In this document: one piece after another, positions 18,774 to 38,266 of the stretch | How positions within the stretch are numbered: position 1 is the stretch's first letter | Layout of the letters: each line of letters begins with the position of its first letter | Origin: Pseudoflavonifractor sp. Marseille-P3106 | GTDB taxonomy: Bacteria > Bacillota > Clostridia > Oscillospirales > Oscillospiraceae | Reading direction: 5' to 3' | DNA length: 64,000 bases | Assembly: GCA_900169975.1 (NCBI GenBank) | Contig: LT827126.1 | Location: 744,001-808,000 of the forward strand | Notes under the pieces: generated by a model | What the model was told of the DNA's origin: nothing | Database searches by the model: none | What the model saw: the letters and a program-made list of their open reading frames with translations, nothing else | Translations under genes and position numbers: made by a program

Positions 18774-21700
18774 ATGAATCATAAAATCGACCGAGATACC
18801 TACATAATACCACCGAATTTCATCGAGTCAGGCACCTTCTTCGGTGGTATGTTCAAAGCCCGCAATGTGATTGAAGCCGGCATCCTGGCATTTGCCATTG
18901 GTGTGCCGGTTTTTTCATTGCTCCCTCTTGGCCTGACTGCCCGTATCATCGCTTTGTGCCTGACCGCACTGCCAGCAGCATTGGTGGCGCTTATCGGAAT
19001 TTCCGGTGAGAGCCTTTCCTCTTTTCTGCTGATTTTCATAAAGTACCTGCGAAACCGCCGCATTGTAGGCGGTAACAGCGCAGAAGATGCGGTTCCTGCG
19101 GCAGAGCATGGCGGCAAGCATATTAAAAAGAAGGCACACAAGCCCGATAAGGCTCCCAGGCGGTCACGGCGCTCCGGCAGAGAGGATTTCCCAGCGGAGT
19201 TTGATGAAGTTCGTGGCTACGAGATCCGCCAAAAACTCCGTCCTGTGAAAAAGCAGAAGCCTGCCAAAGAGAAGAAAACCGCCAAGCAAAAAAAGAAGGT
19301 CTCCAAGGAGCGCAAAGTAAAACGCCCTATCCGCACTCAGGAGCCGAAGCCCGCCTGCCTTAACCCGGTAGCAGATTATCTGCCGATTTCCAAAATTGAA
19401 AACGGCATCATCTACACGAAGGACCACCGCTATGTCAAGGTCGTCGAGGTAGTACCCATCAATTTTATGCTGCGCAGTGCCCAGGAACAGCGGAACATCA
19501 TCTATTCCTTTGTGTCCTACTTGAAAATCAGCCCCATCAAGCTGCAAATCAAGGTACTGACACGCCGGGCAGAGATCAACCGCCATCTGGATACCGTTCG
19601 GAAGGAGATGGAACAGGAGACCAATGAACAGTGTCTGCTCATGCAGGAAGACTACCTCCAGTTCGTTCAGCAGATCGGTTCCCGTGAGGCAATTACCCGA
19701 CGTTTCTTCCTGATTTTTGAATATGAGCCGTGGAGCAACACCAAGCGCTCTGATGAAGAAGGCGAGGCAATCAATGCCCTGCAAAGTGCAGTCCATACTG
19801 CTACCAACTACCTCCGTCAGTGCGGTAACGAGGTCATCGTTCCGGAAAACTGGGATGAGTTTACCGTAGATGTCCTCTATAACCTGCTCTGCAGAAATGA
19901 AAGTGCTGTAAAGCCGCTCTCCGTCCGGGCACAGGAGGTTGTGGCTGAGTACCTTGCCAAAGGGTGCGACAGTGAGATCGACCATATCCCTGCCACCGAA
20001 TTCTGTGCGCCAAAAAGCATTGACTTCACGCATGGTCACCATATCTGCATTGATGGTCTGTATTATGCTTATTTGCTGGTGCCCTCTGATGGCTACAAAA
20101 CGCAGGTTCCAGCCGGCTGGCTCAGTCTTATCGTCAATGCCGGTGACGGGATCGATATGGATATGTTCCTCTCCCGCCAGCCCAAAGAAACCATCATCCA
20201 GAAAGTCGGACAGCAGCTGCGTATCAACCGTTCCAAAATCAAGGACGCCAGCGACACCAACACCGACTTTGATGACATTGATGGCGCTATCCGAAGCGGG
20301 TACTTTCTCAAAGAGGGCCTTGCCAACAACGAGGACTTCTACTACTTGAATCTGCTGATTACCATTACTGCCTCCAACGAGGAAGACTTGGAATGGAAGG
20401 TCAGCGAAATGAAAAAGCTCCTGCTCTCACAGGACATGAACGCCTGCACCTGCCATTTTCGGGAGGAACAGGCGTTTTTATCTGCCCTGCCATTGGTGGC
20501 AATGGAAAAGAAACTGTATGAGCGGGGTAAGCGCAACCTGCTGACAGGCGGTGCGGCAAGCTGTTATCCCTTTACATCCTATGAGATGTGTGATGATAAC
20601 GGTATCCTGCTGGGTGTCAACAAGTACAACAGTTCCCTTATTATCGTGGACATCTTCAATTCTGCGGTCTATAAGAACGCCAATATGTCGATCCTTGGCA
20701 CGAGCGGAGCCGGCAAAACCTTTACCATGCAGTTGATGGCGCTGCGAATGAGGCGGAAAAATATCCCCATTTTCATTGTTGCGCCCCTAAAAGGCCATGA
20801 ATTTCATCGCGCCTGCTCCAACGTGGGCGGCTCCTTTATCCAGATTTCACCAGCCAGTCCCCACTGCATCAATGTCATGGAAATCCGGCGGGTAGACCGC
20901 TCAGTGAATGAACTTCTGGACGGTCCAGGCATCCAGTTATCTGAACTTGCAGCAAAGATCCAGCAGCTCCACATATTTTTCAGTCTGCTGATCCCCGATA
21001 TGTCTCACGAGGAACGACAGCTTTTGGACGAAGCCCTTGTTCGTACCTATAACACAAAAGGCATCACTCATGATAATGCCTCTTTAGAAGACCCTGCAAA
21101 GCCCGGTCAGTACCGTGAGATGCCGGTGCTTGGTGACCTGTACGAAATTTTGAAAACCTCCAAGGAAACGATGCGCATGGCCCACATCCTAAATCGTCTG
21201 GTAAACGGAAGCGCCAGCACCTTCAATAAGCAGACCAATGTTCGGCTCGACAACAAGTACACTGTTTTGGATATTTCCTCCCTCACCGGAGACCTGCTCA
21301 CCGTAGGTATGTTTGTGGCGCTGGACTTTGTTTGGGACAGAGCCAAAGCCGACCGTACAGAAGAAAAAGCCATCTTCATCGATGAGTGTTGGCAGCTTCT
21401 ATCCGGTGCCGGTGCTGCTGGTGTAAGATTGGCCGGCGATTTTCTTTTGGAAATTGCCAAAACCATACGCGGTTACGGCGGCGCCTCGATTTTTGCAAGC
21501 CAGGATCTTGCCGATTTCTTTGACCTTGACGGCGGCAGATTTGGTAAGGGCATCATCAACAACTCCAAGACCAAGATCATTCTGAATCTGGAAGACGACG
21601 AAGCCCAGCGGGTACAGGAAGCCCTTCACCTGTCCGATGCTGAAACAATGGAGATCACTCACTTTGAAAGAGGTCACGGTCTGATTTCTACCAATAACAA

Positions 21701-21830
21701 CAATATTATGGTGGAGTTCAAAGCCAGCCCTCTGGAAAAGGATCTGATCACTACCGACCGCTGCGAGCTGCGTGAAATCGTAGAGCGAAAACGCCGTGAA
21801 CAATCCACATCTGCCGAACAGCAGATATAA
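18774..21830 (+). CDS. PrgI-VirB4 fusion, conjugation ATPase
   Basis: 1018 residues, main energy-supplying ATPase of the mating channel. The first 95 or so residues match the small membrane protein PrgI (RDTYIIPPNFIESGTFFGG start, two membrane helices), normally a separate gene. A very basic linker (about 100-195, KKQKPAKEKKTAKQKKK) joins it to the VirB4 body. Walker A is GTSGAGKT at residues 642-649 and Walker B is AIFIDECWQLL near 866. No relaxase or wall-anchor domain is seen. Downstream are the DUF5697-like gene and the coupling protein. Confidence 0.88.
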   Translation: MNHKIDRDTYIIPPNFIESGTFFGGMFKARNVIEAGILAFAIGVPVFSLLPLGLTARIIALCLTALPAALVALIGISGESLSSFLLIFIKYLRNRRIVGGNSAEDAVPAAEHGGKHIKKKAHKPDKAPRRSRRSGREDFPAEFDEVRGYEIRQKLRPVKKQKPAKEKKTAKQKKKVSKERKVKRPIRTQEPKPACLNPVADYLPISKIENGIIYTKDHRYVKVVEVVPINFMLRSAQEQRNIIYSFVSYLKISPIKLQIKVLTRRAEINRHLDTVRKEMEQETNEQCLLMQEDYLQFVQQIGSREAITRRFFLIFEYEPWSNTKRSDEEGEAINALQSAVHTATNYLRQCGNEVIVPENWDEFTVDVLYNLLCRNESAVKPLSVRAQEVVAEYLAKGCDSEIDHIPATEFCAPKSIDFTHGHHICIDGLYYAYLLVPSDGYKTQVPAGWLSLIVNAGDGIDMDMFLSRQPKETIIQKVGQQLRINRSKIKDASDTNTDFDDIDGAIRSGYFLKEGLANNEDFYYLNLLITITASNEEDLEWKVSEMKKLLLSQDMNACTCHFREEQAFLSALPLVAMEKKLYERGKRNLLTGGAASCYPFTSYEMCDDNGILLGVNKYNSSLIIVDIFNSAVYKNANMSILGTSGAGKTFTMQLMALRMRRKNIPIFIVAPLKGHEFHRACSNVGGSFIQISPASPHCINVMEIRRVDRSVNELLDGPGIQLSELAAKIQQLHIFFSLLIPDMSHEERQLLDEALVRTYNTKGITHDNASLEDPAKPGQYREMPVLGDLYEILKTSKETMRMAHILNRLVNGSASTFNKQTNVRLDNKYTVLDISSLTGDLLTVGMFVALDFVWDRAKADRTEEKAIFIDECWQLLSGAGAAGVRLAGDFLLEIAKTIRGYGGASIFASQDLADFFDLDGGRFGKGIINNSKTKIILNLEDDEAQRVQEALHLSDAETMEITHFERGHGLISTNNNNIMVEFKASPLEKDLITTDRCELREIVERKRREQSTSAEQQI

Positions 21831-24489: not shown

Positions 24490-26424
24490 GTGAGCCTGAT
24501 TGCAGCGCCCTTTGCCATTCTTGCAATCCTATACGCAGGCGGCTTTCTGGCACAGCTTTTGGGTAACTATGCAACCTGGAAACAGGGCGGCGGTATTCCC
24601 GGTGATGGTACTTCACCGCTGGCCGCTTCGCCCGACTTCCTTCTCTGCCTTTCCTCTGTGCTTCGACCGCCTTATGGCGTGTATGGCATTTTGATCTGCA
24701 TTGGCTTGTTAGCAGTGCTGCTCATCATGGTCATGCGCATGGGATATGGTGATGCCGGCGAGTATGATGAAGACCGTAATTTCTCCTACTCCGCCAAAGG
24801 CACTTATGGCACCTCCGGCTGGATGTCCCGCAAAGAAATGTCCGGCGTACTGGATCTGGTGCCCGATCTGCGCAAACACAAGGGTGTTGTACTGGGTATG
24901 CTGGATGGCAAAGCAGTCTGCATACCGGAAGATACCAGAATCAACAGTAATCTGGCAGTCTACGGCGCCAGTGGTTCCATGAAAACCCGTTCGTTTTGTA
25001 TGAACCGTATCCTTCAGGCCACTGTCCGAGGCGAAAATGGCGCCGGAGAATCGTTGATCATCTGCGATCCCAAATCGGAATTGTACGAGAAGTCAAGCGA
25101 ATTTCTCCGCAGCCGGGGCTATTGTGTCAAGGTATTCAACCTCGTTTCGCCTGAAAACTCAGATTCCTGGTGTTGCCTTGCCGAAGTTGAGGGACAGGAA
25201 CTAATGGCCCAGCTTTTTGTAGATGTCATCATCAAGAACACCACGAACAACGGCAAGAGCGACCATTTCTGGGATGCCTGCGAGATGAATCTGCTCAAGG
25301 CCTTGGTACTGTATGTGGATCAAGGCTATGCGGAAGAAAACCGCAACATTGGCGAAGTCTACCGGCTGCTGACTCTCAATGGGGAATCCCAACTTGACAC
25401 ATTGTTCGAGGCGCTTCCTTCCACGCACCCTGCCAAAGCACCCTACAGCCTGTTCAAGCAGGCCAGCGACACAGTGCGAAGCGGCGTGATTATCGGTCTG
25501 GGCAGCCGCCTGCAGGTATTCCAGTCTGAGCTGATCAAAAAAATTACCGCTAAGAATGAGATCGATCTGGAGCTTCCGGGTCAGCAGCCCTGTGCCTACT
25601 TCCTCGTTACCAGCGACCAGGACAGCACCTTTGATTTTCTGGCCTCGCTGTTTCTATCTTTCTGCTTCATCAAACTGGTGCGATATGCAGACCACAACTG
25701 CGAGGGCGGCAAACTGCCTGTGCCCGTCCATATCCTTGGGGAAGAACTGACAGCGTGCGGCACGATCCCCGACCTCTCCCGCCGGCTCAGCGTAATACGC
25801 TCCCGGAATATCTCCATGTCCTGTGTGTTCCAAAATCTCGCAGGATTGCAGAACAGATACCCGCAGAATTTGTGGCAGGAGATCATTGGAAACTGTGACG
25901 CGCAGTTGTTTTTAGGCTGTACAGACCAGCTTACTGCCGAATTTATTTCTGCCAGGACAGGGCTTGCCTCTGTAGCAGTATCCAGTAAATCCAAACAGCT
26001 GGGCACCTGGCGTATCTCCAACTATACACCGGAGTTTCGTGAGACCTCCGGTGTTGGAAAACGCCCTGTACTTACTCCTGATGAAGTCCTGCGGCTCCCG
26101 TTGGATCAGGCGCTCATCATCATCCGCGGCAAGAAGGTTCTGCAGGTAGACAAAATGGATTACTCCAAACACCCGGAAGCCAAGTACCTGCGTTCCTGCA
26201 AAGCATCTGCCCATGTACCGGAATGGCGCCGCTTGGAAGAAGAAGACGCCAAAACACCGCAGCCCGCGCCGAAACCGGCTCCTGCAGCAAAGAAACCGGC
26301 AAAGCGCAAAGCCACCAAGCCGGCATCCCCCACGGATAAATCACCCAAAGAGGCTCCGGCCCCTAAATCTGCCGGTACGCCGGAAGGCATTATCACCGCA
26401 GACAAGGATTCCATCCTGTCTTAA
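24490..26424 (+). CDS. VirD4/TraG-like type IV coupling ATPase
   Basis: About 644 residues; brings the DNA-protein substrate to the channel. Two N-terminal membrane helices (about 4-24 and 62-85), then the ATPase. Walker A reads GASGSMKT (159-166), with Met where Gly is usual; the region that normally reads DEFANIG reads GEELTACGTIPDL, so Walker B is also unusual. The C-terminus is a Lys/Ala/Pro tail. The natural N-terminus (reading N-K-K-K-L-I-V-S) would start at an ATA at 24469, eight bases after a GGGGAGG site and overlapping the previous stop; GTG at 24490 is the first conventional start but lacks such a site. Confidence 0.85.
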   Translation: MSLIAAPFAILAILYAGGFLAQLLGNYATWKQGGGIPGDGTSPLAASPDFLLCLSSVLRPPYGVYGILICIGLLAVLLIMVMRMGYGDAGEYDEDRNFSYSAKGTYGTSGWMSRKEMSGVLDLVPDLRKHKGVVLGMLDGKAVCIPEDTRINSNLAVYGASGSMKTRSFCMNRILQATVRGENGAGESLIICDPKSELYEKSSEFLRSRGYCVKVFNLVSPENSDSWCCLAEVEGQELMAQLFVDVIIKNTTNNGKSDHFWDACEMNLLKALVLYVDQGYAEENRNIGEVYRLLTLNGESQLDTLFEALPSTHPAKAPYSLFKQASDTVRSGVIIGLGSRLQVFQSELIKKITAKNEIDLELPGQQPCAYFLVTSDQDSTFDFLASLFLSFCFIKLVRYADHNCEGGKLPVPVHILGEELTACGTIPDLSRRLSVIRSRNISMSCVFQNLAGLQNRYPQNLWQEIIGNCDAQLFLGCTDQLTAEFISARTGLASVAVSSKSKQLGTWRISNYTPEFRETSGVGKRPVLTPDEVLRLPLDQALIIIRGKKVLQVDKMDYSKHPEAKYLRSCKASAHVPEWRRLEEEDAKTPQPAPKPAPAAKKPAKRKATKPASPTDKSPKEAPAPKSAGTPEGIITADKDSILS

Positions 26425-27942: not shown

Positions 27943-28028
27943 GCAAAAGAGTCTGGGAAGCAGCGGCAAACTGTTTCCCAGACTACCTTCTATCATCAAC
28001 CTCGCTACTTTCTGTTTATCAGATTTTC

Positions 28029-28096
28029 GACAAACACACATTACTTATGGGTAATTTAATGTGTGTTTGTCAGTTTTGATTGACAAACACACATTA
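28029..28096. promoter_or_regulatory. AbiEi operator: three copies of a 15-bp repeat
   Basis: GACAAACACACATTA at 28029-28043, its perfect reverse complement at 28057-28071, and a third direct copy at 28082-28096 that covers the -35 box of the promoter. AbiEi antitoxins bind inverted repeats before their own operon, so this is the likely autoregulation site. Confidence 0.85.
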
Positions 28097-28108
28097 TTTT
28101 TATATAAT
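28080..28108 (+). promoter_or_regulatory. Consensus promoter of abiEi-abiEii
   Basis: TTGACA (28080-28085), exact 17-bp spacer, TATAAT (28103-28108). Both boxes match consensus, so repression by the overlapping operator must set expression. Confidence 0.85.
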
Positions 28109-28143
28109 ATAATGTGTCTTAGTCTGAAAGCGAGGTGGTGGCT

Positions 28144-28737
28144 ATGAGCGACAAAGAAAAAATCATTGAGCTTTTGAACTCGTCACCGGACGGAACAATT
28201 ACAGCTGAACAGGTAACTACCGCAGGGTTGCACCGCAGCGTCTTGCAGAATCTTGTTGAGAGCGGTGAAATTTACCGTTTTGGACGTGGCCTGTATCTAT
28301 GCAGCAGCGCCTGGGAGGATGATTTCTATTTACTGCAGCGTAAATACGGGCGTGGAATCTACTCACATGATACCGCACTGTACCTGCTCGGTTATTCCGA
28401 CCGTACCCCAGCGCAATATACCATGACATTCCCCAAAGGCTACAATTCTTCATCGCTGAAACATGAAAATATTATCGTCAAGCGTGTTGTACCCGCGAAT
28501 TATTCGTTTGGCATAACAGAAGTGCAGTCTCCCTGCGGCAATCCAATCCGCATCTATGATCTTGAGAGAACACTATGCGATATTCTCCGTGGCAGCGGCA
28601 GCGACGTTCAAATTGTCGGAGCAGCAATGAAGAAGTACGCAGACTCTAAAGAAAAAGATATACACAAATTGATGAAGTATGCAGAGCAACTTCGCGTGAA
28701 ACCCAAGATACTTCGATATATGGAGATTCTACTATGA
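28144..28737 (+). CDS. abiEi: AbiEi-type antitoxin (type IV toxin-antitoxin)
   Basis: 197 residues. An N-terminal winged helix (about 1-60; AEQVTTAGLHRSVLQNLVESGEIYRFGRGLYL) and a C-terminal antitoxin domain with YSHDTALYLLG and DLERTLCDILRG blocks typical of AbiEi. Type IV antitoxins counteract the toxin without direct contact and repress their own promoter. ATG at 28144 follows GAGGTGG; two upstream GTG codons are inside that site. ATGA overlap with the toxin gene. Confidence 0.9.
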   Translation: MSDKEKIIELLNSSPDGTITAEQVTTAGLHRSVLQNLVESGEIYRFGRGLYLCSSAWEDDFYLLQRKYGRGIYSHDTALYLLGYSDRTPAQYTMTFPKGYNSSSLKHENIIVKRVVPANYSFGITEVQSPCGNPIRIYDLERTLCDILRGSGSDVQIVGAAMKKYADSKEKDIHKLMKYAEQLRVKPKILRYMEILL

Positions 28738-29579
28738 TTACAAAGAATCCAATGCAACTGAAAGCATTTATAAAAAAGAAAGCTGCAGAGAAGAATATCT
28801 CCGCTCAGCTTGTCATGCAAAATTATATGTTGGAAAGGCTGCTCGAACGAATTTCGCTGTCAAAATACAAGCATAATTTCATTCTAAAAGGCGGCTTTCT
28901 TATTTCCGCAATCGTTGGTCTGGACACTCGCGCTACCATGGATTTGGATACTACGATTAAAGGCTTTACGCTGACGCATGAATCTATCCGTAAGATTTTT
29001 GAAGAAATCTGCGCTGTGGAAGTTGCCGATGATGTGCAGTTTGAACTGGTGGATATTTCGGATATACGCGAAGGAGATGATTACCCAGGCATTCGCATCG
29101 CACTGAAAGCGATCTACCCTCCGATCAGCGTACCATTAACTGTGGATGTGACTACCGGAGATGTTATCACACCGCGAGAAATTGAATATACCTTTTCCCT
29201 GCTGTTCGATGACCGTACAATCAGCATTTTTGCCTATAATCTTGAAACAGTATTAGCGGAAAAAATCGAAACAGTACTGTCCCGCAGTATCGCCAATACC
29301 CGTCCGAGAGATTTCTACGATATACATATTCTGTATTCTCTGAGAGGTGCAGAATGCAATGAGAAAACGCTGCTGCAAGCGCTGAAACGAACAGCAGACA
29401 AGCGTGGCAGTCATAAAATACTGGAGCAATATCAGGATATTATCAATGAAATCCGTTCCAGCGAGCAGCTCCAAAGCTTCTGGAAAAAATATCAACGTGG
29501 TTTCGACTACGCAAAGGATATTTCCTTTGACGAGACCTGTGACACAATTCAGCGCATTATGAACAAAATCACTCAGTAA
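28734..29579 (+). CDS. abiEii: AbiEii-type nucleotidyltransferase toxin
   Basis: 281 residues. The nucleotidyltransferase motifs are in place: LKGGFLISA at about 51-59 and the acidic pair in TMDLDT at 70-72; further down EKIETVLSR and RPRDFYDIHIL are family blocks. Such toxins stop growth by attaching nucleotides to an acceptor (tRNA in studied members). With the antitoxin it can stabilise the element or abort phage infection. Confidence 0.9.
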   Translation: MITKNPMQLKAFIKKKAAEKNISAQLVMQNYMLERLLERISLSKYKHNFILKGGFLISAIVGLDTRATMDLDTTIKGFTLTHESIRKIFEEICAVEVADDVQFELVDISDIREGDDYPGIRIALKAIYPPISVPLTVDVTTGDVITPREIEYTFSLLFDDRTISIFAYNLETVLAEKIETVLSRSIANTRPRDFYDIHILYSLRGAECNEKTLLQALKRTADKRGSHKILEQYQDIINEIRSSEQLQSFWKKYQRGFDYAKDISFDETCDTIQRIMNKITQ

Positions 29580-29600
29580 GCTCCAACCATGCAGAAAGCA

Positions 29601-29670
29601 AATTGACACAGGTTTGTCTCTACATTGGCACAGTCCTGCCCTTTCGCCGTAAATCCATATCTGTTATACT
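29601..29670 (+). promoter_or_regulatory. Pilus-operon promoter with paired half-sites (copy B)
   Basis: TTGACA at 29603 and TTGGCA at 29625 (22 bp apart), then GTCCTGCCCTTTC, GTAAAT and TGTTATACT with the -10 box TATACT at 29665-29670, 40 bp after the second half-site. Spacings equal those of copy A at 14955. Confidence 0.65.
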
Positions 29671-33626: not shown

Positions 33627-34466
33627 ATGAAACTGAATAACCGATTCATCTTCGGTATCCTCTCTCTGCTGTTGGCGGCAGTTATCGCCTTTGTGGCACT
33701 TCCAACCATCGCCCGTCAGACCAATGGAAAAGAGGAAATCGTCCGTATCACCCAGCCGGTATTGAAAGGCGAGCAAATCTCGTCAGAAAATGCCGAGGTG
33801 GTTGAGGTAGGCGGCTATAACCTCCCCTCCAACATCGCCCATCAGCTCTCCGATGTAAATGGTCTTTACGCTACCGCCGACTTGGCTGTGGGTGACTATA
33901 TCCTTACCAGCAAGATCAGCTCTGTACTGGTTTCGTCCGATGTGGCGCTCAACAGCATCCCTTCCGGTAAGGTTGCTATCTCGCTGACCGTTAAAACACT
34001 TGCTTCCGGCCTCTCTGACAAGCTTCAGCCCGGTGACATCATCCGTATTTACCACTTTCTTGATACAGCGGCCGAAGTACCGGAACTGCGTTTTGTCAAA
34101 GTATTGTCCGTCACAGACTCAGACGGCATCAATGTGGATAATGCCAAGGAGCCCACGGAGGATGAAGAAAAGCAGCAGTCAGCCACCATCACTGTGCTGG
34201 CAAGCCCTGAACAGGCGAAGATCATTACCGGTCTTGAAAATGACGGCGTAGCTCATGTGGCTCTTATCTCCCGCAACAATGACAAACTGGCAGATGAGCT
34301 GCTTGCCGAGCAGGATAAGACTCTGCAGGAAATCTACTTCCCCGAAACTTTGATTGAGGAAGAAGCTGCAGATGCGGAAAATTCTGATGTTGAAAGTGAA
34401 CCCCAGGAAACGGAAACTGCAGAGTCTGCACAATCCACTAATGAAACTGCACCCTCGGCAGAATAA
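33627..34466 (+). CDS. CpaB/RcpC-like SAF-domain pilus assembly protein
   Basis: 279 residues: N-terminal membrane helix (about 8-27), a SAF-like domain (about 35-105; VRITQPVLKGEQISSENAEVV ... DYILTSKIS), a second conserved block (LQPGDIIRIYHF), and an acidic C-terminal tail (about 235-279). RcpC/CpaB in Gram-negative Tad systems works next to the secretin; here, in a Gram-positive host, it more likely faces the wall. Confidence 0.82.
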   Translation: MKLNNRFIFGILSLLLAAVIAFVALPTIARQTNGKEEIVRITQPVLKGEQISSENAEVVEVGGYNLPSNIAHQLSDVNGLYATADLAVGDYILTSKISSVLVSSDVALNSIPSGKVAISLTVKTLASGLSDKLQPGDIIRIYHFLDTAAEVPELRFVKVLSVTDSDGINVDNAKEPTEDEEKQQSATITVLASPEQAKIITGLENDGVAHVALISRNNDKLADELLAEQDKTLQEIYFPETLIEEEAADAENSDVESEPQETETAESAQSTNETAPSAE

Positions 34467-34593
34467 TCAAATCAAGCCTGCAAATAAAAAGTCAATAGGA
34501 AAATGAAAAATTTTCAAGATTTATTGTTGACTGAATTTCAGGTACGCCAAATAGACCACCGTTATCCGCTGGTCTGAAAGGATGTGGTATTCC

Positions 34594-35805
34594 TTATTCC
34601 GGAAGAGATGTGAGATATTCTTTAACTCTTCCGTAATAGATGCGCAGAAACTTGTTAGCGCCTGCGGTCATGTAGACATAGTAAGGCTTTCCCTGAGCAC
34701 GTTTCTTATCAATAAATGTATATACATGGTCATCCTGCGGCTTTGTCTTAATGAGACAATCCATGACCTGAAATAAGGTTTTTCTAAGTGAAGATGAGCC
34801 GCGTTTGGAAGTCGGAACGCTTTTTTGTTCATAGGTGCCGGATTCATTGACACCCGGATCTACACCGGCAAATGCAGTGATAGCTCCTTTGTGGGTGAAA
34901 CGTGTAACATCTCCGAGCTCAGCTATAAGCTGAGGGCCAAGAGATGGACCGACCCCCTTCATACCCATAACAACGGGATATTCCGGCAGTTTGGCGGCTG
35001 TCTCATTCATCAGGGCACGGAGTTCTTCCACGGTCTTGGAAGCAGTGTTTAATTGTTTTATGGCCTGTTTCACGATCAGTTTGGTCAAATCATCTTTTGG
35101 AAATACAGGAACAAGCTCCCTGGCAGTTCCATAGATTTCTTCAGCCTTGTCTTTGCTGAAGTTGTACTTCCTGCGTTTGCACCATTTCTGATAATGGTCG
35201 ACAAATGCGTTTAATGACAGTTTACGAACACAGTCCACATGCCAGTATGTAGCGGCGAAATCAACCCACTTCTGGCTGCCGTCCTCACGGGCAGGGCTGT
35301 CAAAGTAAGTATTCACACCAGGGTAAGTCTGATCGAGGATGCCGATGAGGTTATTCTTCATAGCTGTTTTGTGTTTCATGTAGAAGCCAATCTGACGGTT
35401 CATAGTCTTTAACTGATTGCGTAGTTCATCCATAAGACTATATTGTTTCAATTCGGTCCAACTGTCAAGTGTATAACGGGCTATTTTTATAGCATCCGCT
35501 TTATCAGACTTTACTTTACGGAGAGAGTTATCTCCGAAGTCTTTAATGAGTTTAGGATTTACGGCAGATACAAAAAGACCTGCCAGAGAAAGCTCACGAG
35601 CCAGTGGTTCGTAGTAACGGCCAGTGTGCTCCATAACGATGCGGGACTCACCATCGAAAGATTTGATCTGCTCAATTAAGGATCGGATGTTACCGGAAGT
35701 GTACTTGATTTCAAAGGGAGAAGAAACGATATCTCCATAAGGCCGGAGAATGGCGACCATACCTTTCCCTTTGGAAACATCAATACCAACAGCGTTCATG
35801 TTCAT
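34594..35805 (-). CDS. IS110-family transposase
   Basis: 403 residues, complete. N-terminal DEDD/RuvC-like domain with Asp9 (GIDVSKGK), Glu59 (VMEHTGRYYEPLA) and Asp101/Asp104 (KSDKADAIKIAR); C-terminal Transposase_20 domain (MGMKGVGPSLG, FAGVDPGVNESG) with a serine-rich SKRGSSSLRK active-site segment. IS110 recombinases are guided by a bridge RNA from the non-coding end of the element. It lies against the direction of the pilus genes, between cpaB and tadZ. Confidence 0.93.
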   Translation of the reverse strand: MNMNAVGIDVSKGKGMVAILRPYGDIVSSPFEIKYTSGNIRSLIEQIKSFDGESRIVMEHTGRYYEPLARELSLAGLFVSAVNPKLIKDFGDNSLRKVKSDKADAIKIARYTLDSWTELKQYSLMDELRNQLKTMNRQIGFYMKHKTAMKNNLIGILDQTYPGVNTYFDSPAREDGSQKWVDFAATYWHVDCVRKLSLNAFVDHYQKWCKRRKYNFSKDKAEEIYGTARELVPVFPKDDLTKLIVKQAIKQLNTASKTVEELRALMNETAAKLPEYPVVMGMKGVGPSLGPQLIAELGDVTRFTHKGAITAFAGVDPGVNESGTYEQKSVPTSKRGSSSLRKTLFQVMDCLIKTKPQDDHVYTFIDKKRAQGKPYYVYMTAGANKFLRIYYGRVKEYLTSLPE

Positions 35806-35829
35806 AAATTTGTCACTCCTTAAGATGAT

Positions 35830-36080
35830 TGCAATGGATAGGTACCAGTTTTACTCATTGCCTATTCAATCTACTGTGGTGTGACACGAACGTACCGGAG
35901 GCAGTTCAACCTGCATAAAACGAACGCTGCAAATGAGGAGCTGGTTATCAGTCTTGTTTACGGACGCGAGGTCCAAGGAAGGAAGCCGATATACCGATTG
36001 CTCCATCATTATAACAGCTTAAGCAACAAGATGGATCATTCCTTACTGGATGTAAGGGATATTAACCATAAATATATTGT
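35830..36080 (-). ncRNA. Candidate IS110 bridge RNA region
   Basis: About 250-300 bases of non-coding DNA lie on the start side of the transposase and fewer than 130 on the other side. In the IS110 subgroup the bridge RNA is made from this upstream end. The position is inferred from family layout; I have not folded it. Confidence 0.4.
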
Positions 36081-36103
36081 AGTAGGAAGGAGGATCTTCG
36101 TTA

Positions 36104-36897
36104 TGGGTAAAGTTATCACCGTCTGGGGAAGCCCCGGCAGCGGCAAATCCATGTTCTGCTGTATTCTGGCCAAAGCCCTGACCCGGGACAAGCGGAAAGC
36201 CATCATTATCAATGCCGATATGAATGTCCCTATGCTGCCGGTCTGGCTGCCGGAGCAGATCATCCAGACCAATACCTCTATCGGCCAGGTTTTGAGCAGT
36301 GTGGAGATTGATACCTCTCTGGTTGCCAGTCATGTGACAGTGCTGAAAAACTATCCCTTCATTGGGATGATGGGCTATGCGGCTGGAGAAAACCCGCTGA
36401 GCTACCCAGAGGTCAAATATACCATGGTACTGCAGCTCATTCATGCTGCCGCCAAACTGGTAGATTTCGTCATTCTGGACTGCAGCACCAGCATGACCAA
36501 TGTGTTCACTCCCGCCGCCATTGAAGCCGGCGATGTAGTCATCCGTATCCTCACCCCGGACCTAAAGGGCATCAACTACCTGAAAGCCCATCAACCTCTG
36601 CTTGTGGACGAGCGCTTCCGGTTTTCTGAGCATATGACATTCGCCGGTCTGGCCCGTCCCTTCCACGCCTTGGATGAAATGGGCTATATCATTGGCGGGT
36701 TTGACGGCCTGCTTCCCTACAGTAAGGAGATCGACCGCTGTGCTACCGAAGGCGGTATGTTCAAGGCTATCACCTACTGTAACCCCAAATACACTGCTTC
36801 ACTGAACAAGGTACTGGAAATTCTGGAGCAAATGGAACTGGCCGAGCAGTCAGAGGATGATGCGGCGTATGAATGTGAGGAGGATGCCGATGAGTAA
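36104..36897 (+). CDS. TadZ/CpaE-like ParA-family ATPase
   Basis: 264 residues. P-loop GSPGSGKS at residues 9-16, followed by a ParA-type DxD region (IIINADMNVPML) and VDFVILDCS as the hydrophobic strand before the second acidic site. TadZ marks the cell pole for pilus assembly in Tad systems. The ATG at 36104 has an AGGAAGGAGG site; the longer in-frame reading from 35881 runs into the IS110 end. The gene ends eight bases inside the next one. Confidence 0.82.
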
Positions 36898-38266
36898 TTT
36901 GAATGATATATTCTTCACACCGGCCGCCAATCAGGAGCTGACCTATGACCAGGTACTGGAGGATGTGCAGCGGTATTTTGCCGAAAACCATGCTTCCACC
37001 ATTGCCGAAGCTGGGGAAGGCAATGCAGCGCGTGCCACAAGCCTGCTCAAAGAACTGATGGAACACTACATTGTCAAGCGAAAGTATGCCCTTGACGGGC
37101 TCTCTACAAAAGAACTGTGTTCCAAACTCTATGAGGATATGGCCGGCTACTCCTTTTTGAAGAAATGGATCTATAAGCCCGGTGTTGAGGAGGTCAACAT
37201 CAACGCCTACAACGACATTGAAGTGATCGAATCCAGTGGGCGCAGTATCAAGATCCCTGATAAATTCAGTTCGCCCCAGCACGCCATCGATGTGATCCGC
37301 CGAATGCTCAACGCCTGCGGCATGGTCATTGATGATACTATGCCCAGCATTGTGGGATTTCTGGACAAAAACATCCGTATTTCAGTGGACAAAACTCCCA
37401 TTGTGGATGCAGATGTAGGCGTCAATGCCTCCATCCGTATTGTCAACCAGCAGACCGTCAGTGAAGAAAAACTGCTGAACTCCGGCAGTGCCACCGCTGA
37501 AATGCTTCACTTTCTGACTGCCTGTATTCGATATGGGGTGTCTGTCTGCATCGCAGGTTCCACCGGCTCCGGCAAGACCACGATCATGGCCTGGCTGCTG
37601 TCCAATGTGCCCAATAACCGGCGCCTTATTACCATTGAAGAAGGCAGCCGCGAATTTGATCTGGTCAAGCGGGATGCACAGGGCAATATCCTCAATTCCG
37701 TGGTACATCTGCTGACCCGCCCCAGCGAGAACCCTGCGCTGAACATCAATCAGGATTTTCTTCTGGAGCGGGTGCTGCGTAAGCATCCGGATGTCATCGG
37801 CGTGGGTGAAATGCGGTCAGCAGCAGAAAGCCTGTCCGCAGCCGAAAGTTCCCGCACCGGCCATACCGTATGTACCACCATCCACTCCAATTCCTGCAAC
37901 AGTACTTACCGCAGGATGATGACCCTTGCCAAACGCAAGTACAACATGGATGACTCCATCCTCATGCAGATCATGGTAGAGGCGTATCCCATCATCGTCT
38001 TTACCAAGCAGCTGGAGGACCGTTCCCGTAAGATCATGGAGATCATCGAGGGCGAGGATTACCAGGACGGGCGGCTGATCGCCCATTCCCTATACAAATA
38101 TGAAGTGGAGGACAATGTAACTGATAACCGTGGTAAAACCCATGTGGTAGGGCACCATAAAAAAATTGGCTTGATCTCCGATTCCTTGAAGAAAAGGCTG
38201 TTGGACAATGGCATTTCCAACAAGGAATTGGAAGAATTCATGCAGCCGCCAAAGGAGGTGGGTTAA
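36890..38266 (+). CDS. tadA: TadA/CpaF-type secretion ATPase (VirB11 superfamily)
   Basis: 458 residues, the hexameric motor that drives pilus extension and, in Tad systems, retraction. N-terminal helical part to about 100; Walker A GSTGSGKTT at residues 223-231; then an acidic block LITIEEGSREF, HPDVIGVGEMRSAAE (Walker B) and the His box HTVCTTIHSNS. ATG at 36890 has GGAGG six bases upstream. The organisation tadZ-tadA-tadB-tadC is the core Tad order. Confidence 0.92.
   Translation: MSNLNDIFFTPAANQELTYDQVLEDVQRYFAENHASTIAEAGEGNAARATSLLKELMEHYIVKRKYALDGLSTKELCSKLYEDMAGYSFLKKWIYKPGVEEVNINAYNDIEVIESSGRSIKIPDKFSSPQHAIDVIRRMLNACGMVIDDTMPSIVGFLDKNIRISVDKTPIVDADVGVNASIRIVNQQTVSEEKLLNSGSATAEMLHFLTACIRYGVSVCIAGSTGSGKTTIMAWLLSNVPNNRRLITIEEGSREFDLVKRDAQGNILNSVVHLLTRPSENPALNINQDFLLERVLRKHPDVIGVGEMRSAAESLSAAESSRTGHTVCTTIHSNSCNSTYRRMMTLAKRKYNMDDSILMQIMVEAYPIIVFTKQLEDRSRKIMEIIEGEDYQDGRLIAHSLYKYEVEDNVTDNRGKTHVVGHHKKIGLISDSLKKRLLDNGISNKELEEFMQPPKEVG

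Follow-up and report, generated by a model that had tools for sequence, protein, structure and literature searches.

The locus raises the question of how an insertion sequence came to lie precisely between two genes of a pilus operon, and of what its RNA recognises there. We analysed a 64,000 bp stretch (hereafter the window) of Pseudoflavonifractor sp. Marseille-P3106, contig LT827126.1, in which cpaB and tadZ are separated by such an element. Its borders, recombinase, non-coding ends and neighbours were compared with those of related copies and with loci in which the insertion is absent. The features discussed below are collected in Table 1.

Borders of the element and its insertion site

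The span originally singled out for study (34467-36103) is essentially the entire gap between cpaB and tadZ, and the IS110-group element proper, with a length of 1,607 bp and its recombinase gene on the minus strand, occupies 34477-36083. An uninterrupted counterpart was found in another genus of the same family (locus L064, on G045:C69), where cpaB and tadZ are adjacent. The flanks of the element match this locus at 99.1% identity on the left (1,477 bp) and at 96.9% on the right (1,917 bp), and because the two matches overlap by 2 bp we place the borders at exactly these positions, with a precise insertion at a 2-bp core. The claim that an insertion interrupts the pilus operon between cpaB and tadZ is thus demonstrated by the uninterrupted locus. 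Independent support for the ends came from 83 related loci, 66 of which align to exactly bases 1-1607 of the element; of the remainder, 14 have only the left end in common with it, and the other 3 are either truncated or distant. The core is CT at both ends in 81 of the 84 guide-bearing elements which were readable on both sides, and CT was present on the left-end side in 145 of 151 sites.

Within its own genome the element is a single copy, and one very distant IS110 relative (23% identity) was found elsewhere in the same genome. A search of a plasmid collection by near-identity gave no match to the element.

Table 1 Features of the element and its surroundings in the window (positions are those of the window).
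Feature	Position	Strand	Remarks
cpaB/RcpC, neighbour to the left	33627-34466	+	Intact
Core dinucleotide copy, right-end (RE) side	34475-34476		AG on +, which is CT on the recombinase strand; 2-bp overlap with L064
Whole IS110-group element	34477-36083	-	1607 bp; left end (LE) at 36083, RE at 34477; L064 and 66/83 loci
TTGACT in RE, putative -35 of the circle-form promoter	34490-34495	-	Survey of distinct junctions
IS110 recombinase	34594-35805	-	403 aa; DEDD and Transposase_20
Predicted bridge RNA	35853-36068	-	Ends approximate; consensus fold
Proposed left donor guide UAUGCAGGUU	35908-35917	-	Matches RE end TGCAGG and core with a G-U pair; conserved
Right target guide (RTG)	35953-35959	-	Complementary to CTTGTTT; site CTTGATT (6/7)
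Hairpin between guides	35962-35974	-	GGAC...GTCC in 101/118 copies; GGGC...GCCC in 11/118
Left target guide (LTG) GCTTCCTTCCT	35976-35986	-	9/11 match to target TCCTCCTTCCT
TACAAT in LE, putative -10 of the circle-junction promoter	36076-36081	-	Survey of distinct junctions
Core dinucleotide copy, LE side	36084-36085		L064 junction and survey of CT at sites
Shine-Dalgarno of tadZ (AGGAAGGAGG), the target	36084-36093	+	Intact, directly beside the element
tadZ-like AAA gene	36103-36897	+	ATG at 36103, start intact; weak AAA_31, below the Pfam cut-off
T2SSE ATPase, tadA-like	36857-38266		Right of the element

Recombinase, element ends and circle junction

The original assignment to the IS110 group was borne out by both Pfam domains of the recombinase, DEDD_Tnp_IS110 (PF01548, E 9.4e-27) and Transposase_20 (PF02371, E 3.7e-18), and by its catalytic residues. 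D9, E59, D101, D104 and S322 (numbered by hand) align with D11, E60, D102, D105 and S241 of IS621, the roles of which are given in the available text of PMC11208158, and all five are kept. The layout is also that of the IS110 group, with a long non-coding region of 278 bases upstream of the recombinase gene (the left end, 35806-36083) versus 117 bases downstream (the right end, 34477-34593), and as judged from these sequence features the element belongs to this group. By sequence, the closest proteins of solved structure were ISCro4 (PDB 9t56, the best match, E 1.8e-17) and IS621 (8wt6), both at E about 2e-17. The recombinase gene carries AAGGAG ahead of its start codon. An apparent in-frame TGA in some relatives was discarded: the stop lies one codon before the real start in the 6 relatives with such a stop close to the front which were checked (L041, L042, L046, L047, L048 and L168; L040 gave no row).

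The right end reads ...TTGACTTTTTATTTGCAGG, and joining it via CT to the left end, ACTACAATAT, yields TTGACT-17-TACAAT. This arrangement was found, with a spacing of 16 or 17, in 61 of 63 distinct junctions, the spacing being 17 in 59 of them. The sequence of a promoter is restored in a circle of the form RE-CT-LE; we infer that this promoter is active, in which case it would transcribe the bridge RNA and the recombinase gene. A promoter across the RE-LE junction is described for IS110 elements in the available text of PMC11208160, and the motif in the window fits this description.

Possible effects of the insertion on the pilus operon

The insertion keeps the reading frames of both cpaB and tadZ, as well as the Shine-Dalgarno (SD) sequence of tadZ, its spacing and its start codon. 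Two further open reading frames to the right have no Pfam match and would, from their position, be tadB and tadC.

It had been suggested that the insertion may block or supply transcription of tadZABC. Reversible switching has been proposed for some IS110 elements. Here, precise excision and insertion would turn tadZABC on and off. We consider such a switch unlikely. It would accord with the precise junction and its uninterrupted counterpart, with the circle-junction promoter motif, and with a terminator-like hairpin with a T-run at 34801-34820, which lies inside the recombinase gene on the plus strand, in the direction of tad transcription. However, the empty locus comes from another genus, the arms of the hairpin vary in those relatives which could be lined up (13 of 17; by eye, unscored), and the scan gave three terminator-like sites against an expectation of 1.2 ± 1.0.

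As to a supply of transcription, some IS ends do provide outward promoters. A consensus scan of 34380-36200 for promoters of the sigma-70 type found none reading out to tadZ; the only promoter-like site, against 4.1 expected, was on the minus strand inside the recombinase gene. We therefore rejected an outward promoter of this type, and consider it very improbable that the element drives tadZABC in this manner.

Two observations concern the annotation and the surroundings of the operon. The left end is open in frame with tadZ over 35881-36102, so a call based on the frame would start tadZ at GTG 35881, within the element. Apart from the insertion sequence and 27997-29613, the stretch of the window from 13246 to 54731 has 97.5-99.0% identity to G045:C69, from another genus. 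Genes for a TraG-type ATPase (18774-21830) and a coupling protein (24490-26424) lie within this stretch; the pilus locus is apparently carried by a conjugative element which was exchanged recently. The segment 27997-29613 has no match to the G045 element. An AbiEii-type nucleotidyltransferase gene (28734-29579) lies wholly or largely within it, so an exchange at this position may have brought in or removed a toxin-antitoxin module.

Predicted bridge RNA and its guides

The upstream flank had been predicted to encode a bridge RNA, a claim which turns on whether related copies share a conserved structure. We aligned the left end (the 278 bases upstream of the recombinase gene) in 44 copies and found a conserved fold with compensated changes, consisting of a 5' stem-loop, a long outer stem, a first arm with a variable guide loop and a second, conserved arm. 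Across the 44 copies, 97.9% of 2,373 cells pair on the consensus structure. Changes on both sides of a pair were seen in 16 of 54 consensus pairs and 72 cells, the corresponding values after shuffling being 7.3 and 15.1 (0 of 500). Slid versions of the structure paired in only 28-44% of cells, a comparison in which the structure is favoured because it was derived from the same alignment that was used for scoring. When the sequence from the window was folded alone, it had a z of -3.87 and 0 of 200 shuffles folded as well. Rfam gave 0 matches above the gathering score within the window.

The guides had been expected to match the target in the pilus operon, and they do so at 9 of 11 bases for the LTG and 6 of 7 for the RTG. 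Guides could be read at 118 of the 151 sites, the remaining 33 being at contig ends or having another hairpin; a few of those parsed (L216, L257) seem to be wrong and were kept in the counts. Guides were compared with their own targets and with permuted targets, in tests which ignore ancestry and therefore overstate certainty, since the copies are related: in 116 unique pairs from the 118 guide-bearing sites, the LTG matched a mean of 7.94 of 11 bases versus 6.26 ± 0.11 after permutation (0 of 2000); in the 22 pairs without the common SD-like words, it matched 7.86 versus 5.27 ± 0.28 (0 of 2000); and positions 3-6 of the RTG matched 3.11 of 4 bases versus 1.61 ± 0.10 (0 of 2000) in 73 unique pairs, 42 of the 118 sites having no readable right flank. 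Reprogrammed guides still match their own sites, for example in L121 (AATTAATCT) and L137. Five groups each have one identical bridge RNA at several different sites (7, 4, 4, 3 and 4, or 22 in all), and the LTG matches 6-10 of 11 bases at every one of these.

For the donor side, we propose that the left donor guide lies in the conserved UAUGCAGGUU. A parallel change, in a single case, is consistent with this assignment: a relative in G094 with the end AGCAGG has AAGCAGGUU in its RNA. An 8-base match in the left end, ATTTGCAG, which was first taken as the left donor guide, lies in a predicted stem, and UAUGCAGGUU is the better candidate.

Nested copies were also observed, one element having inserted into the DNA that codes for a sibling's guide (108 bp inward from the left end) and others into donor-arm DNA (185 bp inward); their positions are 608 for L270, 685 for L242 and 49 for L160. 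Because the DNA of a guide copies the target of that guide, guide DNA is itself a hazard.

Probable homing to Shine-Dalgarno sequences

The target beside the left end in the window is the SD of tadZ, and we examined whether other copies sit at similar positions. Sites were gathered by similarity to the left end: 194 hits gave 154 distinct flanks, of which 151 were retained (3 were dropped for N or less than 200 bases of flank), and these sites are related and hence not independent. A strict SD within 16 bases of the core was found at 94 of the 151 sites. At 78 of the 151, an SD, a start codon and a frame open for 50 codons follow directly at the left end, while the same combination was found at 0.65% of 74,180 flank positions and 1.15% of 4,258 AG positions used as controls. 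With a looser test for SD, start and frame, the count was 90 of 151 sites versus 2.0-2.8% in the controls. As a strict SD is absent from 57 of the 151 sites, and 61 fail even the loose test, we describe the homing as a strong preference; those 61 are either real exceptions or failures of a simple test.

Most of the guides resemble the anti-SD tail of 16S rRNA. We took the 3' end of 16S rRNA to be GGCTGGATCACCTCCTTTCT; this exact tail was found in 8 of the 20 genomes examined, and it had no match in the genome of the window, in which the 16S is incomplete. At least 6 consecutive bases are common to the tail and the guide in 35 of 58 unique guides, compared with 12.7% of guides after shuffling and 0.63% of the 17,189 other 12-mers taken from these RNAs; the guide of the window shares only 5 consecutive bases. 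Full gene starts were found at 55 of 96 sites with anti-SD-like guides (at least 5 shared bases) and at 4 of 22 with other guides (Fisher p 0.0016), this set of 22, defined by the match to the 16S tail, overlapping but not being identical to the 22 of the LTG permutation, which were defined by a word list. Among the flanks listed there was no case of GGATCACC beside the left end, as would be seen for insertions into 16S genes, which carry the anti-SD tail.

These findings could also be produced by selection acting on ordinary IS110 insertions, if insertions within genes are lost, those ahead of genes survive and the guide has a minor role. A host would be expected to tolerate insertions in 5' leaders, and the sites without a strict SD are also in keeping with this. 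On the other hand, guide and target covary to the left and to the right of the core alike, also among guides without SD-like words. In 64 elements which were readable on both sides, an SD was found on the LE side in 40 and on the RE side in 1, and an SD with start and frame on the LE side in 32 and on the RE side in 0. The association is moreover lost with guides that are not anti-SD-like, and because gene-start siting depends on the guide in this way, we consider it highly unlikely that selection alone left the leader insertions. That the guide was programmed for this pilus operon, making the element a tad-locus specialist, is barely credible in spite of its matches at the site, since relatives with 86-93% DNA identity and similar guides (L086-L094, L166) are at unrelated sites and cpaB and tadZ lie side by side without an insert in the 3 further tad loci aligned on both sides (L067, L068 and L070; L065, L066 and L069 align on the tadZ side only). 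The expected match to the pilus-operon target therefore held, while the specificity to the operon did not: the target is an SD, which the clade uses in many genes.

Taken with the guide data, the SD association makes it very probable that this IS110 clade homes to ribosome-binding sites via an anti-SD-like guide, as a bridge-RNA-guided element. By analogy with IS621, from which the mechanism is taken, the LTG in the first RNA loop, which resembles the 3' anti-SD tail of 16S rRNA, would pair with the strand complementary to the left target, the RTG would pair with the top strand beyond the CT core, and the recombinase would exchange strands at CT. As the left target reads as an SD in reverse complement, the element would land directly 5' of the SD of a gene and antisense to that gene, leaving the SD, the spacing and the start codon whole. 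In the window the SD is that of tadZ, and the pilus operon is consequently split between cpaB and tadZ with both frames undamaged. Transcription of the RNA, its pairing and the strand exchange probably take place in this clade as they do in IS621.

A more speculative reading, which we regard as rather doubtful, is that the LTG is a mimic of the 16S anti-SD tail in more than its address and that the bridge RNA also pairs with the SDs of mRNAs, including that of its own recombinase, tuning translation and limiting copy number. In this reading the mimicry would open thousands of tolerable sites to the element in nearly every bacterium with SD-led translation, and this would explain its spread across unrelated hosts.

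Relatives, host range and implications

The SD association extends to a relative at 51-55% protein identity. Its ends, read from five G094 copies (L076-L080), are ATTACAATAAATTTG...GCAGGT around a CT core which was assigned without an empty site. In 12 distinct loci (15 rows were read, 2 of them without a left end and 2 being the same locus), an SD was found beside the left end in 10 and a full gene start in 7. A scan allowing at most 2 mismatches detected the left-end motif of the window's clade in 91 of the 397 genomes in the family to which G528 (a Hungatella hathewayi record) belongs; some of these matches are due to chance, the backward control matching in at least 7 genomes. Tetragenococcus, Acetobacterium and Eggerthia are among the named carriers. 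Copies of the element or its relatives were also present on IMG/VR contigs (L166, L167 and L168), and phages or prophages may carry it.

The natural targets of bridge-RNA guides, and the reasons for them, are little charted, and here a large clade appears to have a guide which addresses a functional motif common to most host genes. Targeting of SDs would offer a simple reason for a wide host range combined with low harm. The copies form a natural data set of guide/target pairs with mismatches, and they add new recombinases for which guide rules could be derived from comparative data on several hundred bases. Since such insertions are found in host gene leaders and within operons, always in antisense orientation, their effects on expression are directly testable.

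Comparison with known systems

IS110 bridge RNAs are already known, and we did not find the SD class of targets described in the open literature: no description of an SD target for IS110 was found in the open-access papers searched, and the word "shine" occurs 0 times in the available text of PMC11208160 and PMC11187229. The element has much in common with IS621 as it is presented in the available text of PMC11208160 (Durrant 2024) and PMC11208158 (Hiraizumi 2024), namely the recombinase domains, the five catalytic positions, a left-end bridge RNA, guides flanking a CT core and an RE-LE promoter, and the RNA predicted in the window agrees with the architecture of the IS621 bridge RNA (PMC11208160). 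IS621 targets REP elements, whereas the clade of the window targets SD sequences. The IS621 recombinase is only remotely similar (two stretches, phmmer E about 2e-17), with 328 aa in the PDB chain compared with 403 aa here. ISCro4 (PDB 9t56) is an IS110-type transposase, like that of the window.

In ISEc21 and the other seekRNA elements, the RNA likewise comes from an upstream non-coding region and short stretches of it match both target strands, and natural reprogramming is reported for these elements (Siddiquee 2024, available text of PMC11187229). Elements of the IS1111 group at attC sites, as covered by the available text of PMC11616780, also combine a DEDD transposase with RNA-guided choice of a recurring functional motif, but differ in having a long non-coding region downstream of the transposase, sub-terminal inverted repeats and another target. 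A long downstream non-coding region of the IS1111 type was not found in our element (117 bases downstream versus 278 upstream), and no inverted repeats joining its ends were found at the length searched, at least 12 bp, the sub-terminal repeats of IS1111 elements being 7-17 bp. Group IIC introns are not relatives of the element, and they use another recurring functional motif, the terminator. The likeness lies in the use of a motif which is frequent in each genome and hence offers many tolerable sites, whereas the enzyme and the chemistry of these introns differ from those of the element.
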